Positions 3,573 through 56,228 of a stretch of DNA of 64,000 bases are shown piece by piece (position 1 is the first letter of the stretch; each line of letters starts with the position of its first letter). The notes under the pieces are model-generated. The model was not told the DNA's origin and did no database searches. It saw only the letters and a list, made by a program, of their open reading frames with translations. Made by a program: the position numbers and the translations under genes. The stretch comes from Draconibacterium aestuarii (lineage in GTDB: Bacteria; Bacteroidota; Bacteroidia; Bacteroidales; Prolixibacteraceae): contig JAPOHD010000064.1 in assembly GCA_026671195.1 (NCBI GenBank), positions 62,001 to 126,000 on the forward strand, in the 5' to 3' direction.

Positions 3573-4787
3573 ATGAAGACATTAAAATACATCAGTTTGA
3601 TTGTATTGGGTATTTGTTTTGCCCAATTCGCAAAGGCACAATTTACGCTTTCAGGAGAATTCAGGCCACGTACGGAGATAAATCACGGGTACAAAACACT
3701 GGCTGCTGAAGACCAGGATATTTCAACAATTACGACACAACGCACACGTCTGAATTTTGGATTTACAAACGAATGGATTAAAACCGGGTTGGTACTGCAG
3801 GATGTGCGGCAATGGGGAAATCAAGCCCAGTTGGTACAAAATCAGGATTATGCCGTTTCGATTCACCAGGCCTGGGCCGAAGTGTTTTTTACTTCGGAGT
3901 TTTCATTAAAAGCAGGACGACAGGAACTGGTTTACGACGACCATCGGATTTTTGGAAATGTGGGTTGGGCCCAGCAGGCACGTTCGCACGATTTAGCTTT
4001 ATTTAAGTATGAAAAGGACTTTAAACTGCATTTTGGTATTGCCCACCACGAAAACAGCAATTTAACCAATAGCGATTACGACGGACCCGATGCCTACAAA
4101 GACCTTCAATTTATTTGGTTTAATAACCAGTGGGAAAATGCCGGTTTAAGTTTGCTATTTCTCAACAACGGAGTTCCGGTAAACGAAGCGAATGAACAAG
4201 AAACGAAATACAGTCAGACCATAGGGGGACGTTTTACCACATCGGTAGAATCGGTTAAACTGGCATCGAATATCTATTACCAAAGCGGGAAACATGCATC
4301 CGGTCGCGATATTAGTGCCTTAAACTTTTTACTGGAAGCTTCGGTTAAAAGTTTTACCCTGGGTTACGAATACCTTTCAGGAACAGACTACGATGAAACA
4401 GATTTTAAATCGTTTACTCCATTTTATGGTACCAACCACAAATTCAATGGATTTATGGATTATTTCTATGTAGGTAACCATGGTGGCTCTGTGGGTTTAA
4501 ATGATATTTACCTGAAATACAAATACACCAAAGACAAATTTGGCTTTGATGCCCACCTGCATTATTTTGGTGCTACAGCTGAAATTGCAAACGATGCAGA
4601 TAAGTACCTGGGAACCGAATTGGATTTGGCGGCTTCGTGGGCCATTCAACCCATGGCAAAAATTTCAGTTGGACTATCTACCCTGTTTGCCGGCGACTCA
4701 ATGGAAATACTAAAAGGAGGCGACAGTTCTGCCACTCAGGCATGGGCTTATGTAATGCTTTCAGTAACTCCCGACTTTATTAAATAG
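3573..4787 (+). CDS. Alginate-export-family outer-membrane beta-barrel protein
   Basis: A 404-residue protein with a signal peptide (MKTLKYISLIVLGICFAQFAKA, cleavage about residue 22) and alternating aromatic/polar strands typical of a beta-barrel. Sequences such as SGEFRPRTEINHG, TQRTRLNFGF and SLKAGRQELVYDDHRIFGNVGW are characteristic of the alginate export/porin family. It follows nrfA by 89 bp, with a hairpin between, and ends at a strong terminator (4811-4858), so it is probably the last gene of the nrf transcript. The context suggests an outer-membrane channel for nitrite, nitrate or ammonium, or an unrelated barrel placed in the respiratory operon. Substrate is not determinable from sequence; true alginate export is unlikely because no alginate genes are nearby. 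Confidence 0.82.
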   Translation: MKTLKYISLIVLGICFAQFAKAQFTLSGEFRPRTEINHGYKTLAAEDQDISTITTQRTRLNFGFTNEWIKTGLVLQDVRQWGNQAQLVQNQDYAVSIHQAWAEVFFTSEFSLKAGRQELVYDDHRIFGNVGWAQQARSHDLALFKYEKDFKLHFGIAHHENSNLTNSDYDGPDAYKDLQFIWFNNQWENAGLSLLFLNNGVPVNEANEQETKYSQTIGGRFTTSVESVKLASNIYYQSGKHASGRDISALNFLLEASVKSFTLGYEYLSGTDYDETDFKSFTPFYGTNHKFNGFMDYFYVGNHGGSVGLNDIYLKYKYTKDKFGFDAHLHYFGATAEIANDADKYLGTELDLAASWAIQPMAKISVGLSTLFAGDSMEILKGGDSSATQAWAYVMLSVTPDFIK

Positions 4788-6719: not shown

Positions 6720-6918
6720 TCCTACATTACAAATTGCTCGTCCTACATACGTAGGGCAAGATAAATGTAAGGCAGGAAACGATTTTGCCGGTGTAGGACG
6801 CATATTTTTGGGCGTAGGAGACCTTTCCCCCGTTGTAGGACAGGTTCTTTTTGTCGTAGGACAGTTTTTTTTTGTTGTAGGAGACCATTTTTTCGTTGTA
6901 GGACGGCTACTTTGGAGT
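6720..6918. repeat. Head-to-head intergenic array of 21-bp units (GTAGGA core)
   Basis: On the plus strand GTAGGA-type cores begin at 6751 (GTAGGG), 6772 (GCAGGA), 6793, 6814, 6835, 6856, 6877 and 6898, every step exactly 21 bp. Two further copies in the opposite orientation (TCCTAC) begin at 6720 and 6741, also 21 bp apart, so the array is inverted around TCCTACATACGTAGGG. Bases after the core are T-rich and often end in GTT or GTC. Because 21 is a multiple of three, stop-free frames appear (about 70 residues), but no ribosome-binding site or protein family supports coding. The array sits between two convergent genes (PepSY gene, ending 6475, and methyltransferase gene, ending 6961). Confidence 0.85.
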
Positions 6919-52412: not shown

Positions 52413-53054
52413 ATGGAACAGAAGAATAAAGAAACTTACTGGAGCAGGTTTACAGAGGATTTCGAAAAAAAACAAAGTCATGTAGTTGGGCAGGAAATCC
52501 TGTTACTCGCCCATCAGGAATTATTAAAAGAGAATAATCTGGGGGATGTTCTGGAATTGGGTTGCGGCACCGGATTATATACAGAAACACTACAGAAAAT
52601 TTCGAAGAATGTTGTAGCTACAGATTTCTCGGAAGAGATGATTGTGTATGCTCAACAGAAAAGAGGGAATCTGGAAAATGTGCGTTTTCAACAAGCGGAT
52701 GCCTTGAACCTGGATTTTGAGGCAGAAAGTTTTGATACGGTTTTTATGGCTAATCTGATTCATGTAATTGGCAATGCTGAAAAGGTGATTCAGGAAAGTA
52801 AGCGGGTGTTGAAAAAAGGCGGAAAGTTGATTATCAATTCTTTTGCCATCGCCGACATGAGCTTTTTAAACCAGCTGACAATGGGTATTCGCTATATAAA
52901 AACATTTGGGAAACCTTCAGCGGAAGCCACAAAAGAAAAAACGACAAAAGAAAGTGTGGAGACCTTGCTCATCAGTAACGGGTTTGAAATTTCCAAAAGT
53001 ATTTTGCTGGGAAGAAAATATAAATCGTTTTATATTACGGCTACTAAGATTTAA
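52413..53054 (+). CDS. Class I SAM-dependent methyltransferase
   Basis: A 213-residue methyltransferase with motif I VLELGCGTGLYTETL (near residue 46-60), motif II ATDFSEEMIVYAQQ, and the post-I region FDTVFMANLIHVIGNAEKVI. The pattern resembles UbiE/Coq5 and arsenite-methyltransferase-like enzymes acting on small molecules. It lies 8 bp after the dehydrogenase gene and shares one base with the downstream hydrolase gene, so all are translated from one message. Confidence 0.9.
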   Translation: MEQKNKETYWSRFTEDFEKKQSHVVGQEILLLAHQELLKENNLGDVLELGCGTGLYTETLQKISKNVVATDFSEEMIVYAQQKRGNLENVRFQQADALNLDFEAESFDTVFMANLIHVIGNAEKVIQESKRVLKKGGKLIINSFAIADMSFLNQLTMGIRYIKTFGKPSAEATKEKTTKESVETLLISNGFEISKSILLGRKYKSFYITATKI

Positions 53055-53908
53055 TGAAGCGAAAAACATTATATATACAAGTTGAACAGAACATTAATCT
53101 TTGGGTAGAAACCTATGGAGACAACAATAATGAAGCCTGTTTACTCATTGCCGGAGCAGGTGCAAACTGCTCGTTTTGGTCGGAAAGATTATGTAAGAAA
53201 CTGGTTGATATGGGATTGTTCGTTATAAAGTACGACCACCGCGATGTTGGCTATTCAACAAAAATTGACTTTGATAAAAATCCCTACGATGTAAACCAAT
53301 TAGCAAAAGATGCAGTATGTATATTAGATGCTTTAAACCTTAAAAAGGCGCATGTAGCCGGCCATTCAATGGGTGGATTTATTGTCCAGCTTCTGGCAAT
53401 CCATTATCCCGAAAGAATTTTATCAATGATTTCGGCATCCTCTTCCACCAACTCGCCAAATGTTCCACTCCCTCCCGAAAAAACATGGGAGATTTTTTTG
53501 CAATTTTCTCCAACTAACAATTTAGAAACAGATCTGTCAGGATTTCTTTTGGTGTGGGAATATTTAAACGGCACAGCCAAATTTGACACAAAACTTGCCG
53601 TTGAGTACACGATAAACATATACGACAGGCAGGAAATAAAGGGTGCTTTAGGCGAAGGACACGTAAAGGCTCAATCGCAAATAAGCGACAGGAGTAACTT
53701 ACTAAAAAACGTTCACATTCCGACCCTGGTGATACACGGAGAACAAGACTATTTAGTGGATAAATATGGTGGAATTCAAACTGCAGAATGTATCAGTAAT
53801 TCGGAATTAGTTCTACTACCGGAAATGGGACACTTACCTTTTAACCACATCATTCTTGAAAAATTCGAAAATGAAATGGTTCGGTTTATCGCACAGAACA
53901 GACACTAA
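53054..53908 (+). CDS. Alpha/beta-fold hydrolase
   Basis: A 284-residue cytosolic hydrolase with nucleophile Ser105 in AGHSMGGFIVQLL. Other elements are the oxyanion turn LIAGAGANCSFWSE, the DHRDVGYSTK segment, a catalytic Asp in VIHGEQDYLVDKYGG and His in MGHLPFNH. It resembles aclacinomycin methylesterase/haloperoxidase-like enzymes. It is the last gene of the serine-hydrolase operon and faces the 42-bp repeat region; no terminator hairpin directly follows it. Confidence 0.91.
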   Translation: MKRKTLYIQVEQNINLWVETYGDNNNEACLLIAGAGANCSFWSERLCKKLVDMGLFVIKYDHRDVGYSTKIDFDKNPYDVNQLAKDAVCILDALNLKKAHVAGHSMGGFIVQLLAIHYPERILSMISASSSTNSPNVPLPPEKTWEIFLQFSPTNNLETDLSGFLLVWEYLNGTAKFDTKLAVEYTINIYDRQEIKGALGEGHVKAQSQISDRSNLLKNVHIPTLVIHGEQDYLVDKYGGIQTAECISNSELVLLPEMGHLPFNHIILEKFENEMVRFIAQNRH

Positions 53909-54240
53909 AATAAAAACACTCATTTACCTTCAGCTTCTAAGCTATCGTCACAATTTTAATTTCAGTCTTAAATATGAAATAATTTTTCACTGCGCTTGAC
54001 TGGAGTTCGGAAATTTGCTGAATATTTTCGATGGATTGCACCAACCAGGGATTGACGGAGAGCACAGCTTGCAGGGCCAGGAGTAGTAGAAAACCAATAA
54101 AGAAAATTCTTGAAGTTGACTATCCCCGTGGCAGAGCCAAGGGGTATTATTCAGATTAAACTAGCGGACACCGCACTACTTGTGGTACTCCGGGCAATAT
54201 CCCAAACAAAAAAAACACCTAACTGCCTCACAAATAGGCT
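53909..54240. other. Gene-free stretch left of the hairpin array
   Basis: No supported gene. A 9-bp hairpin with one mismatch (CCCCGTGGC, loop AGA, GCCAAGGGG; 54124-54144) stands alone and resembles a REP-like element. TAGCGGACA (54162-54170) matches, with one difference and in reverse orientation, a motif at 18382-18390. The hairpin could terminate the hydrolase operon, but only weak T runs follow. Confidence 0.45.
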
Positions 54241-54512
54241 TCCCGCAGTTTTGCGGGAACAAAAAAAACTTTGTGGCTGACGTCCCGCAGTTCTGCGGCA
54301 TCGGGAAAAATGTTGTGGATTGCTTCCCGCAGTTCTGCGGTAGAGGAAAAAATGTTGTGGATTGCTTCCCGCAACTTTGCGGCATAGGAAAAAATGTTGT
54401 GATTCACGTCCCGCAGTTCTGCGGGAACAAAAAAAACTTCATGGCTGGCTTCCCGCAACTTTGCGGCACAGGAGAAAATGTTGTAGCTCGCCTCCCGCAA
54501 CTTTGCGGCACT
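54241..54512. repeat. Tandem array of seven 42-bp units each beginning with a small palindrome
   Basis: TCCCGCA begins at 54241, 54283, 54325, 54367, 54409, 54451 and 54493, every step exactly 42 bp. Each unit starts with a hairpin, either CCCGCAGTTTTGCGGG, CCGCAGTTCTGCGG or CCGCAACTTTGCGG. An A-rich stretch and then a GTTGTGG-like part follow. Two unit types alternate irregularly (GGAACAAAAAAAACTT and GGxAAAAAATGTTGTG). Paired changes in the stems keep base pairing (GCAG/CTGC and GCAA/TTGC), which points to selection on structure. Open frames exist on both strands only because 42 is a multiple of three. Confidence 0.88.
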
Positions 54513-54718
54513 GGTGCTTTTAAACAAACATTTGAAAAGGTGGCCCTGGCATACGAAGCGGCAAGGATTGCAGCGGCACCCCATTGCAGCCTGCGCCACG
54601 TTTTTGTTGGTGGGCGGAGGCGACAACGAAGCCCACGCACCGGCTACAAAAATGCAAGCGGGCAAAATGGGTAGAGCGTAAAGCCTGTTAAAGCCGAATT
54701 ATGCGTTAGAACTTTGTA
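54513..54718. other. GC-richer stretch right of the hairpin array
   Basis: About 200 bp with a higher GC content than its neighbours and an ATTGCAGC near-repeat (54567-54574 and 54583-54590). No gene, tRNA or terminator is supported. The end GCGTTAGAAC (54703-54712) looks superficially like an integron core site but fails the consensus. Confidence 0.4.
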
Positions 54719-54881: not shown

Positions 54882-56228
54882 CTATAACTGAACTTCTTTT
54901 TCCACGGTTACCAACTCGCCTTCCGTAGAGAAATCGGTGGCTGCAGTAATTTTCACATCAACAAATTGCCCAATCAATGTTTCGTTGTCAGAAGCAAAAC
55001 GCACAATCAGTTTTCCTTCGGTATGCGACGAGAGGAAGCCCTCTTTTCTATCCGTTCCGCGCACCAGAACGCGCATTGTTTTACCAATTAAAGCCTGGTT
55101 GTAGGGAAGACTGTGCTCGCGCAAATCTTCGGTTAAAGCATGCAGTCGGCGTTTCTTTTCGTCTTGCGGAATATCGTCGACCCAACGGTGACTGGTAGCT
55201 CCCGGGCGCGGTGAGTAAATAGCCGTATACGACATGTTAAACTTAAACTCGTGGAAAGCCTTTTGCGTGTTGGCAAACTGCTCTTCGGTTTCGCCGGTAA
55301 AACCAACAATCACATCAGTAAATAATGTGGCTTCGGGAATTAACCGACGAATGGTTTGTACAATGTGACGGTATTTTTCCAAGTTGTGTTTGCGGTTCAT
55401 TCGCATCAACACTTTATCGTCGCCACTTTGCATGGGCAAATGAATTTGTTTTCCCAAAACCGGGTATTCGGCAATTACCTCAATTACTTCGTCGGTCATG
55501 TCGCGTGGATGTGGCGAAGTAAAATACAGCCAGAATTCTTTTTTCATCCGGTTTCCGAGTTCACCAATTTCGCGTAATAACTGTGGGAAAGTAATCTCCT
55601 CTCCTTTTTTATCCAGTCCGTACGAATTTACGTTTTGTCCGAGTAAAGTAATCGACTTAAACCCTTGTGCCACCAATAAAGCAACTTCGGCTAAAATATC
55701 TTTCGAAGGGCGTGAAACCTCGCGACCACGGGTATACGGAACAGCACAATAGGTACAGAATTTATCGCATCCGTTCTGAATGGGAATAAATGCTTCAAAA
55801 TTGGATTGATAATTTGGAGCCACATTCCAGAACTCCTCAATATTTTCGTTGTGCGGATCAATTCCGGATTTAAGGTGTGTAGGCGTAGTTATACCATACT
55901 GACTGATCAGTTCAGGCAGTGTTGGCAGATCTTTCATCTGAAACGTAACGTCGAACAGCTTTAAAAATTTCTCATGATCGTCGGGCAACATACACCCCGA
56001 AATAAAAGTAATCAGGTTTTTATTGTTTTTCCACTTGTTCCATTTATGAATGCGTGAATACACCTTATCAATTGCTTTTTGACGTACCGAACATGCCAAA
56101 ATTCCAATTAATCCTGCTTCCTCCTCGTTATCGGTCCACTCGTATCCGGCTTCATCAAGCACAGAAATTACTCGCTCACTATCCGATAAATTCATCTGAC
56201 ACCCTAAGGTTATTACGTGGTATTTCAC
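54882..56228 (-). CDS. miaB: tRNA-2-methylthio-N6-dimethylallyladenosine synthase
   Basis: MiaB is a radical-SAM methylthiotransferase that adds a methylthio group to i6A37 of tRNAs reading UNN codons. The 448-residue protein has the UPF0004 domain with cluster cysteines Cys10 (LGCQMN), Cys46 (ILACSVRQKA) and Cys79 (ISGCML). The radical-SAM CxxxCxxC follows as Cys154, Cys158 and Cys161 (GCDKFCTYCAVPYTRGREVSRP in context), and a C-terminal TRAM domain (about 380-445). FTDVIVGFTGETEEQF is also typical. MtaB/RimO are alternatives, but the AVPYTRGREVSRP context favours MiaB. It lies 37 bp downstream of the flavin reductase gene. Confidence 0.92.
   Translation of the reverse strand: MKYHVITLGCQMNLSDSERVISVLDEAGYEWTDNEEEAGLIGILACSVRQKAIDKVYSRIHKWNKWKNNKNLITFISGCMLPDDHEKFLKLFDVTFQMKDLPTLPELISQYGITTPTHLKSGIDPHNENIEEFWNVAPNYQSNFEAFIPIQNGCDKFCTYCAVPYTRGREVSRPSKDILAEVALLVAQGFKSITLLGQNVNSYGLDKKGEEITFPQLLREIGELGNRMKKEFWLYFTSPHPRDMTDEVIEVIAEYPVLGKQIHLPMQSGDDKVLMRMNRKHNLEKYRHIVQTIRRLIPEATLFTDVIVGFTGETEEQFANTQKAFHEFKFNMSYTAIYSPRPGATSHRWVDDIPQDEKKRRLHALTEDLREHSLPYNQALIGKTMRVLVRGTDRKEGFLSSHTEGKLIVRFASDNETLIGQFVDVKITAATDFSTEGELVTVEKEVQL

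Follow-up and report, generated by a model that had tools for sequence, protein, structure and literature searches.

Tandem arrays with a 41/42-bp pitch adjoin DUF6261 genes and include an orphan array in Draconibacterium aestuarii

Type III toxin-antitoxin loci (ToxIN, CptIN, TenpIN) carry tandem repeats directly upstream of a gene, with units that differ between families, and the iteron and centromere arrays of Rep-iteron, parC-ParR and tubC-TubR systems are direct repeats of ~10–22 bp, at helical pitch, beside the gene for a binding protein. The arrays described here resemble type III loci in having tandem repeats 5′ of a protein gene and family-specific units. However, the adjoining gene encodes a DUF6261 protein that, judged from its sequence, matches no ToxN/AbiQ, CptN or TenpN model (Pfam returned only DUF6261 for the one protein searched, and PADLOC returned nothing for five), the pitch stays at 41/42 bp across unrelated sequences, and there is no sign that one RNA strand is selected. 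They resemble iteron and centromere arrays in being direct repeats at helical pitch that adjoin a gene, but the repeats of those systems are shorter, DUF6261 has no Rep or Par match in Pfam, and a genome can hold up to 10 DUF6261 loci with unrelated units. CRISPR arrays share the regular repeat spacing and, in a subset of our arrays, the leader, whereas here the 42-bp units are diverged and contiguous, with no spacers. Like REP/BIME elements and their RAYT genes, the arrays are dispersed, multi-copy, intergenic and palindromic; unlike them, they do not accompany the two Y1_Tnp genes of the D. aestuarii genome, which by eye are flanked by other repeats or by none. We therefore rejected a REP/RAYT origin. 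The array-linked protein is a clear member of DUF6261 (PF19775; 1.5e-40 in Pfam for one of the proteins), to which Pfam assigns no function. We found no literature on bacterial 41/42-bp DUF6261 arrays in a search that covered subscription journals thinly, such that an earlier mention is possible, and the single paper in which we found the name DUF6261 appears unrelated. The arrays form a repeat class with spacing as its invariant, tied to an unstudied protein family from several bacterial families; they offer a way into a domain that has no assigned function, and into how DNA arrays can keep their geometry while their sequence turns over.

The window, a 64,000-nucleotide stretch of the D. aestuarii genome, contains a tandem array at 54237–54510 with a period of 42, 6.5 copies, 73% matches and 0% indels as determined by TRF. 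Chaining with a unit model gave six consecutive 42-bp spacings (unit readout starts at 54240, 54282 ... 54492; Table 1), and both methods bear out an earlier note on this DNA, made from the sequence alone, which described seven units at an exact 42-bp pitch with no indel. Unit 7 is the weakest, with a score of 12.0 as compared with 29.7–46.1 for units 1–6. Reading the unit sequences, we found a dyad with the core GCA-N4-TGC in all seven units, each of which has an A-rich second half. The array exceeds chance in its folding energy, with z-scores of -4.3 for the + strand and -3.1 for the - strand (20 shuffles per strand). It lies between two convergent genes, one of which we take to be MiaB-like. 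In a MAFFT alignment with other leaders, cctaactgcctcacaaata lines up as a possible, diverged version of AACAC-TAACTnACTGATTAtA, which leads related arrays; the match is weak, with three mismatches in the core motif TAACTn3TGATT, and many family members have no leader. The window includes no DUF6261 ORF of at least 80 aa, and no DUF6261 remnant was found in the 1.2 kb before the array or the 1.5 kb that follow the array, which is thus an orphan. It nevertheless has the family pitch and, by profile and plain DNA searches, a unit sequence shared with arrays that adjoin DUF6261 genes.

Table 1 Features of the array region, in window coordinates
Feature	Position	Strand	Evidence or remark
Possible leader	54200..54236	+	cctaactgcctcacaaata at 54218-54236, 3′ of A-rich stretch
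Unit 1, 42 bp	54237..54278	+	TRF, chaining
Unit 2, 42 bp	54279..54320	+	TRF, chaining
Unit 3, 42 bp	54321..54362	+	TRF, chaining
Unit 4, 42 bp	54363..54404	+	TRF, chaining
Unit 5, 42 bp	54405..54446	+	TRF, chaining
Unit 6, 42 bp	54447..54488	+	TRF, chaining
Unit 7	54489..54530	+	similarity to repeat lost past ~54512; TRF end 54510
Alpha/beta hydrolase, upstream neighbour, outside element	53054..53908	+	PF00561 1.3e-25
Radical SAM protein, MiaB-like, downstream neighbour, outside element	54882..56228	-	PF04055, PF00919, PF01938

The earlier note proposed that absence of the array from relatives would suggest a chance expansion; the outcome was the opposite. A plain DNA search with the window array matched 9 of 37 genomes of the genus at E ≤0.01, its own genome included, although two of these matches (G011 and G016) resemble coding sequence and chance. 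Window and G003 arrays matched each other at 1.8e-21, and one such G003 array adjoins a DUF6261 gene. We built a model, R1, three units long, from units of the window and its relatives (45 rows, four of them the window's own). Since R1 was built from sequence only, without structure, base pairing could be tested afterwards. R1 matched 19 of the 37 genus genomes, although the match in G022 reached no more than E 0.003. Among 140 genomes of the family it matched 30, namely the same 19, four strong cases that all belong to a second genus (g21) and seven weak cases; there are several window-type arrays per genome. We chained the units of 60 arrays (58 fetched loci, the window array and one further locus of the same genome, L018), permitting spacings of 36–48 bp and penalising those other than 42, a procedure that favours 42. 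Of the resulting 325 spacings, 274 were 42 bp and 51 were 41 bp, such that the freedom from indels seen in the window does not extend strictly to its relatives. The 41-bp spacings fall at the same unit position in related arrays and hence look inherited. Seven units is the commonest size (21/60 arrays). By eye, among the arrays listed, unit 1 frequently belongs to a type of its own, and a leader ending in TGTAACTnACTGATTAtA precedes many arrays. We conclude that chance expansion is ruled out by the arrays of relatives, their strict spacings and, as described below, their rarity in control DNA.

Within the window's own genome (6.37 Mb, 69 contigs), the model matches strongly at the window array alone (E 6e-25, 1.7e-22 and 2.4e-18). 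Weak matches were found on contigs C25 (8.7e-5), C45 (1.9e-4; L018), C20 (4.8e-4), C4 (0.003) and C13 (0.02), of which those on C25 and C4 adjoin DUF6261 genes. The other three (L018:1400-1720 on G000:C45, G000:C20:109028-109343 and G000:C13:95761-95947) are perhaps decayed orphan arrays; L018 looks decayed on reading, and its leader resembles that of two arrays at DUF6261 loci (L174 and L210). An exact-pattern scan of a wider collection of genome contigs returned four loci, none with a TRF array near period 42 and none with a DUF6261 ORF.

Clustering of the proteins encoded beside the 58 fetched arrays identified a 249–253 aa protein, the DUF6261 protein, on the same strand and 145–273 bp downstream of eight of them. 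Only two of these eight arrays (L125 and L128) have another compared flanking protein in common; hence, the eight linked loci represent seven contexts. DUF6261 is encoded in 26 of the 37 genus genomes, often in multiple copies, with up to 10 matches per genome. A sample of 395 genomes from the phylum yielded 12 with a DUF6261 match, 11 of which passed the cut-off. Across the 37 genus genomes, window-type arrays and the array-linked DUF6261 subfamily (≥63% identical, fragments included) occur together in 10 and are both missing from 17, while nine have only the array and one only the protein (Fisher p 0.003; counts made by hand, kinship ignored).

Many of the first 30 DUF6261 loci had TRF arrays of period 42 or 41 but of unrelated sequence. 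To these 30 we added 28 loci found in the sampled phylum genomes and 40 picked from part of the genus matches, mainly in G000, G006, G008, G032 and G033. Of these 98 fetched loci, 94 had an ORF passing an iterated family model and 86 were unique; eight duplicates were dropped, as were L164, L179, L227 and L239, which had no passing ORF, although L179 does carry a 42-bp array. By TRF, a 41/42-bp array lies upstream of DUF6261 in 62 of the 94 loci and 56 of the 86 unique ones; many of the loci are orthologues, and such counts are therefore not independent. The upstream TRF rows of period 15–200 and score ≥60 comprised 24 of period 41, 43 of period 42, 22 of multiples of these and six others, with none of period 39, 40, 43 or 44. 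There were 67 rows of period 41 or 42 in 102,868 upstream bases, as compared with three in 412,890 control bases, drawn from the window and from DNA flanking window-type arrays, and two in 112,900 bases downstream.

A lag scan left free over 30–60 placed the best upstream lag at 41 or 42 in 78 of 85 DUF6261 loci, the region of L166 being too short to include. Of these 78 loci, 56 have the TRF array; among the other 22, the lag exceeded every one of 60 shuffles at 16 and failed to do so at six. Lags downstream of DUF6261 were scattered, except that a group of 225-aa DUF6261 proteins (L181, L192 and L213) has lag 42 downstream instead of upstream, in all three cases; the array of this group in the window's genome (C4) is a weak match to the window array model. 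At four of the 85 loci (L184, L233, L234 and L161) neither side gave a lag of 41 or 42. One of these exceptions, L161, is the only DUF6261 upstream region with a clear lag of 43 (0.55, versus 0.45 in shuffles). Both DUF6261 records that plasmid searches found by protein similarity alone have an array upstream, of period 41 in Prevotella nigrescens and 42 in Parabacteroides distasonis (NZ_OY725748.1); a third plasmid protein search found nothing. In the P. nigrescens plasmid the annotated DUF6261 start overlaps the end of the array, and the ATG further on, at 3977, seems the more probable start. We conclude that DUF6261 genes generally have 41/42-bp arrays beside them.

While the pitch stays constant, the unit sequence turns over with the DUF6261 subfamily. 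Chaining of the 56 DUF6261 arrays, with 41 and 42 free and other spacings penalised, gave 175 spacings of 42, 108 of 41, one of 40 and one of 38; because such chaining favours 41 and 42, the TRF and lag-scan counts are the unbiased results. These arrays have 3–9 units in 55 of the 56 cases and 18 in the remaining one. The median best circular identity between units was 0.62 where the two proteins share 70% identity or more (63 pairs), 0.47 where they share 50–70% (42 pairs) and 0.41 where they share less than 50% (1,435 pairs), as compared with 0.40 for shuffled units. A leader, TAACTn3TGATT with at most one mismatch, precedes 18 of the 56 DUF6261 arrays and 40 of the 60 window-type arrays but occurs in only 33 of 2000 control windows, and it links arrays whose units fall into four or more unrelated types. 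A dyad was significant in only 15 of the 56 unit consensi, indicating that the hairpin is common but not defining.

We compared indels with substitutions in orthologous array pairs. In 23 pairs, the ratio was 42:862 within arrays and 267:907 in flanks, where gaps are inflated by poorly alignable sequence. In the 14 pairs with 5′ flanks at least 80% identical, it was 14:354 within arrays and 57:341 in 5′ flanks (p 3e-7); these pairs overlap and are not independent, and a few of them include DUF6261-linked arrays. Thus, indels are depleted 4–6 fold inside arrays, and on these sequence comparisons selection appears to act on spacing even where the array is an orphan.

The arrays might act as RNA. 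A transcribed repeat RNA that binds DUF6261 in the manner of a type III antitoxin, or that serves as a protein sponge, would fit tandem repeats lying immediately 5′ of a protein gene, the hairpins of many units, the low folding energy of the arrays, and the 9 of 56 loci in which the chained array ends ≤60 bp from the DUF6261 start codon and so may be transcribed. The earlier note described compensating changes in the hairpin stems, among them a contrast of CAG/CTG with CAA/TTG (unit positions 12 and 15). That contrast is real within the window, but it does not hold across the family. We aligned 376 units (353 distinct) from 55 arrays, omitting the five of the 60 that have fewer than three units, and compared pairing with shuffles. 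Pair 12–15 is Watson-Crick in 106 of the 353 distinct units as compared with 146 in shuffles (z -4.9), and pair 7–20 falls further below expectation (z -6.7); four of the 13 dyad pairs (7–20, 12–15, 13–14 and 6–21) fall more than 2 sd below shuffles, and only two exceed them by as much, the nearly invariant 10–17 (z 4.4) and the outermost, 1–26 (z 2.9). The highest mutual information lies mostly between neighbouring columns, and the sole dyad pair among the top 30 is the adjacent 13–14. No compensatory change is supported over these units, and in the 15 dyad-bearing DUF6261 arrays double changes account for just 19 of 275 changed stem cells, with 62 G-T and 57 A-C mismatches and no strand asymmetry. 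Fold z-scores are similar on the two strands (-3.40/-3.24 for the 56 DUF6261 arrays and -2.61/-2.82 for 49 window-type arrays), as dyads in double-stranded DNA would yield. RNA hairpins with covariation are therefore not supported. In addition, a promoter-like block of the TTGAC..TAATTTT type, read by eye in the 11 loci printed out, lies between the array and the DUF6261 gene, DUF6261 matches no toxin model, and we know of no reason why an RNA should be limited to a pitch of 41/42. We consider an RNA role unlikely. A multi-hairpin transcription stop between convergent operons, which the earlier note listed among possible roles, would suit the setting of the window array and of the 19 of 60 arrays with convergent neighbours; however, 24 lie between codirectional genes (18 and 6), 15 between divergent ones and two in undefined settings (crude ORF calls). 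Moreover, a scan for GC hairpins followed by a T-run gave the window array one weak terminator-like site (unit 1, - strand) where shuffles lead us to expect 1.5. A terminator is thus highly improbable. There is even less to be said for a repetitive protein: 164-aa (+) and 145-aa (-) frames are open across the window array, but the 51 spacings of 41 bp break the reading frame, substitutions at the three codon positions number 59, 51 and 69 (four array pairs), open frames in the 49 arrays of at least five units are spread across the six possible frames, with 2 to 17 arrays in each, and the frames through the window array have no Pfam match. These results agree with the view of the earlier note that a surface-protein gene is unlikely here, and we put the chance of a coding function close to nil.

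The array could instead be the substrate for mobility or copying of a selfish cassette whose spread DUF6261 aids, with orphan arrays as non-autonomous offspring that have no host function. Two loci of one genome, L205 and L206, share 98.1% identity across a 1,242-bp block that takes in both array and gene, starting 471 bp upstream of the DUF6261 gene and stopping 20 bp past its end, and have different flanks; in many other locus pairs, similarity ends 54–75 bp after the stop codon, at a terminator-like hairpin in the cases printed out. The block duplication, the seven contexts of the eight linked loci, the several arrays per genome and a DUF6261 fragment that still adjoins one orphan array (L132) all favour a mobile cassette. 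On the other hand, inspection by eye of eight pairs of ends revealed neither a target-site duplication nor terminal repeats, DUF6261 has no match to a recombinase family beyond noise, and arrays at orthologous places resist indels. The matches that we took as noise had best E-values of 0.08 against PDB sequences and, for five DUF6261 proteins, 0.009 in NCBIfam and 0.006 in PHROGs, with none in PADLOC. A phage origin was rejected, as no phage match was found for the window-array DNA or for one DUF6261 protein, and no relative of four DUF6261 proteins was found in viral contigs. A purely selfish role seems to us a minority prospect.

We favour, with about as much confidence as doubt, a reading in which the window array is an orphan of the 41/42-bp family and the arrays are protein-binding sites on double-stranded DNA, kept in helical register and recognised by DUF6261 or by a partner protein. 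B-DNA has ~10.5 bp per turn, and 41–42 bp corresponds to four turns. Given unrelated unit sequences, no selected strand and selected spacing, an array of double-stranded sites on one face of the helix is the simplest reading. The proposal of the earlier note that the array binds a dyad-binding protein or forms a nucleoprotein array may also be accommodated, as far as sequence can tell. DUF6261 is the candidate reader because it is adjacent, is often multi-copy, turns over with the array, and, across an alignment of 34 proteins, keeps an Arg invariantly and an Asp almost invariantly (R75 and D72 of L171). Binding of the array by DUF6261, helical phase as the cause of the pitch, and any downstream effect are inferred. 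Several observations weigh against this reading. Arrays persist without a close cognate: G036 has arrays of seven and six units and no DUF6261 match to the array-linked clade at E 1e-20, and among the eight DUF6261 matches in the window's genome the nearest to the array-linked subfamily is only 50% identical. The low counts of leaders and significant dyads at DUF6261 arrays, the nine arrays that end close to a start codon and the four loci with neither lag also count against it. Elsewhere the element would form the upstream part of a small mobile cassette: tandem 41/42-bp units, with a leader in a subset, followed by the DUF6261 gene and its terminator. DUF6261, or a protein acting with it, would assemble cooperatively on sites repeated along one face of the DNA; the site sequence would turn over with the protein subfamily while selection holds the pitch. 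An array next to the gene might control or mark the cassette, and given the promoter-like block it would act from upstream, whereas orphan arrays might be additional loading sites, sinks, or remnants left after gene loss. The data suggest a protein system that responds to how DNA sites are spaced more than to their sequence. If the helical-register reading is correct, half-turn shifts should kill function and full-turn shifts should not. AA/TT steps have no 10–11 bp signal, which counts against this reading too and led us to reject intrinsic bending by phased A-tracts. More speculatively, and with doubt outweighing belief, DUF6261 could be a new class of protein that forms arrays on DNA, in which pitch is the invariant and site sequence a fast-evolving password, each of up to 10 paralogues having its own private array and orphans serving as extra loading sites. 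If true, this would give bacteria a counterpart of satellite DNA and the proteins that bind it.

No Rfam family reached its gathering score in the window or in the array loci searched (14 of the 58), and a known RNA was rejected on this basis; the one sub-threshold match, to Flavo-1 RNA, lies beside the window array, just 3′ of it (54556–54694, + strand, 28.3 bits against a gathering score of 42, E 0.0036). Three further repeats were observed in passing. A short array of period 21, equivalent to two helical turns, lies at 6832–6904 of the window (3.5 copies of GTTGTAGGACACCATTTTTTT, TRF score 76). On the leader side of one DUF6261-linked 42-bp array are two arrays of period 51–52 with the hairpin GGTGCAGAGCACC (L045:3680-4340), another hairpin array type. 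Lastly, a Y1_Tnp gene on the window's own contig (L058; G000:C61:439-660) is flanked by GGCACGGATTGCAAATCCGCGCCAGCGG-type palindromes and is likely a REP/RAYT pair.
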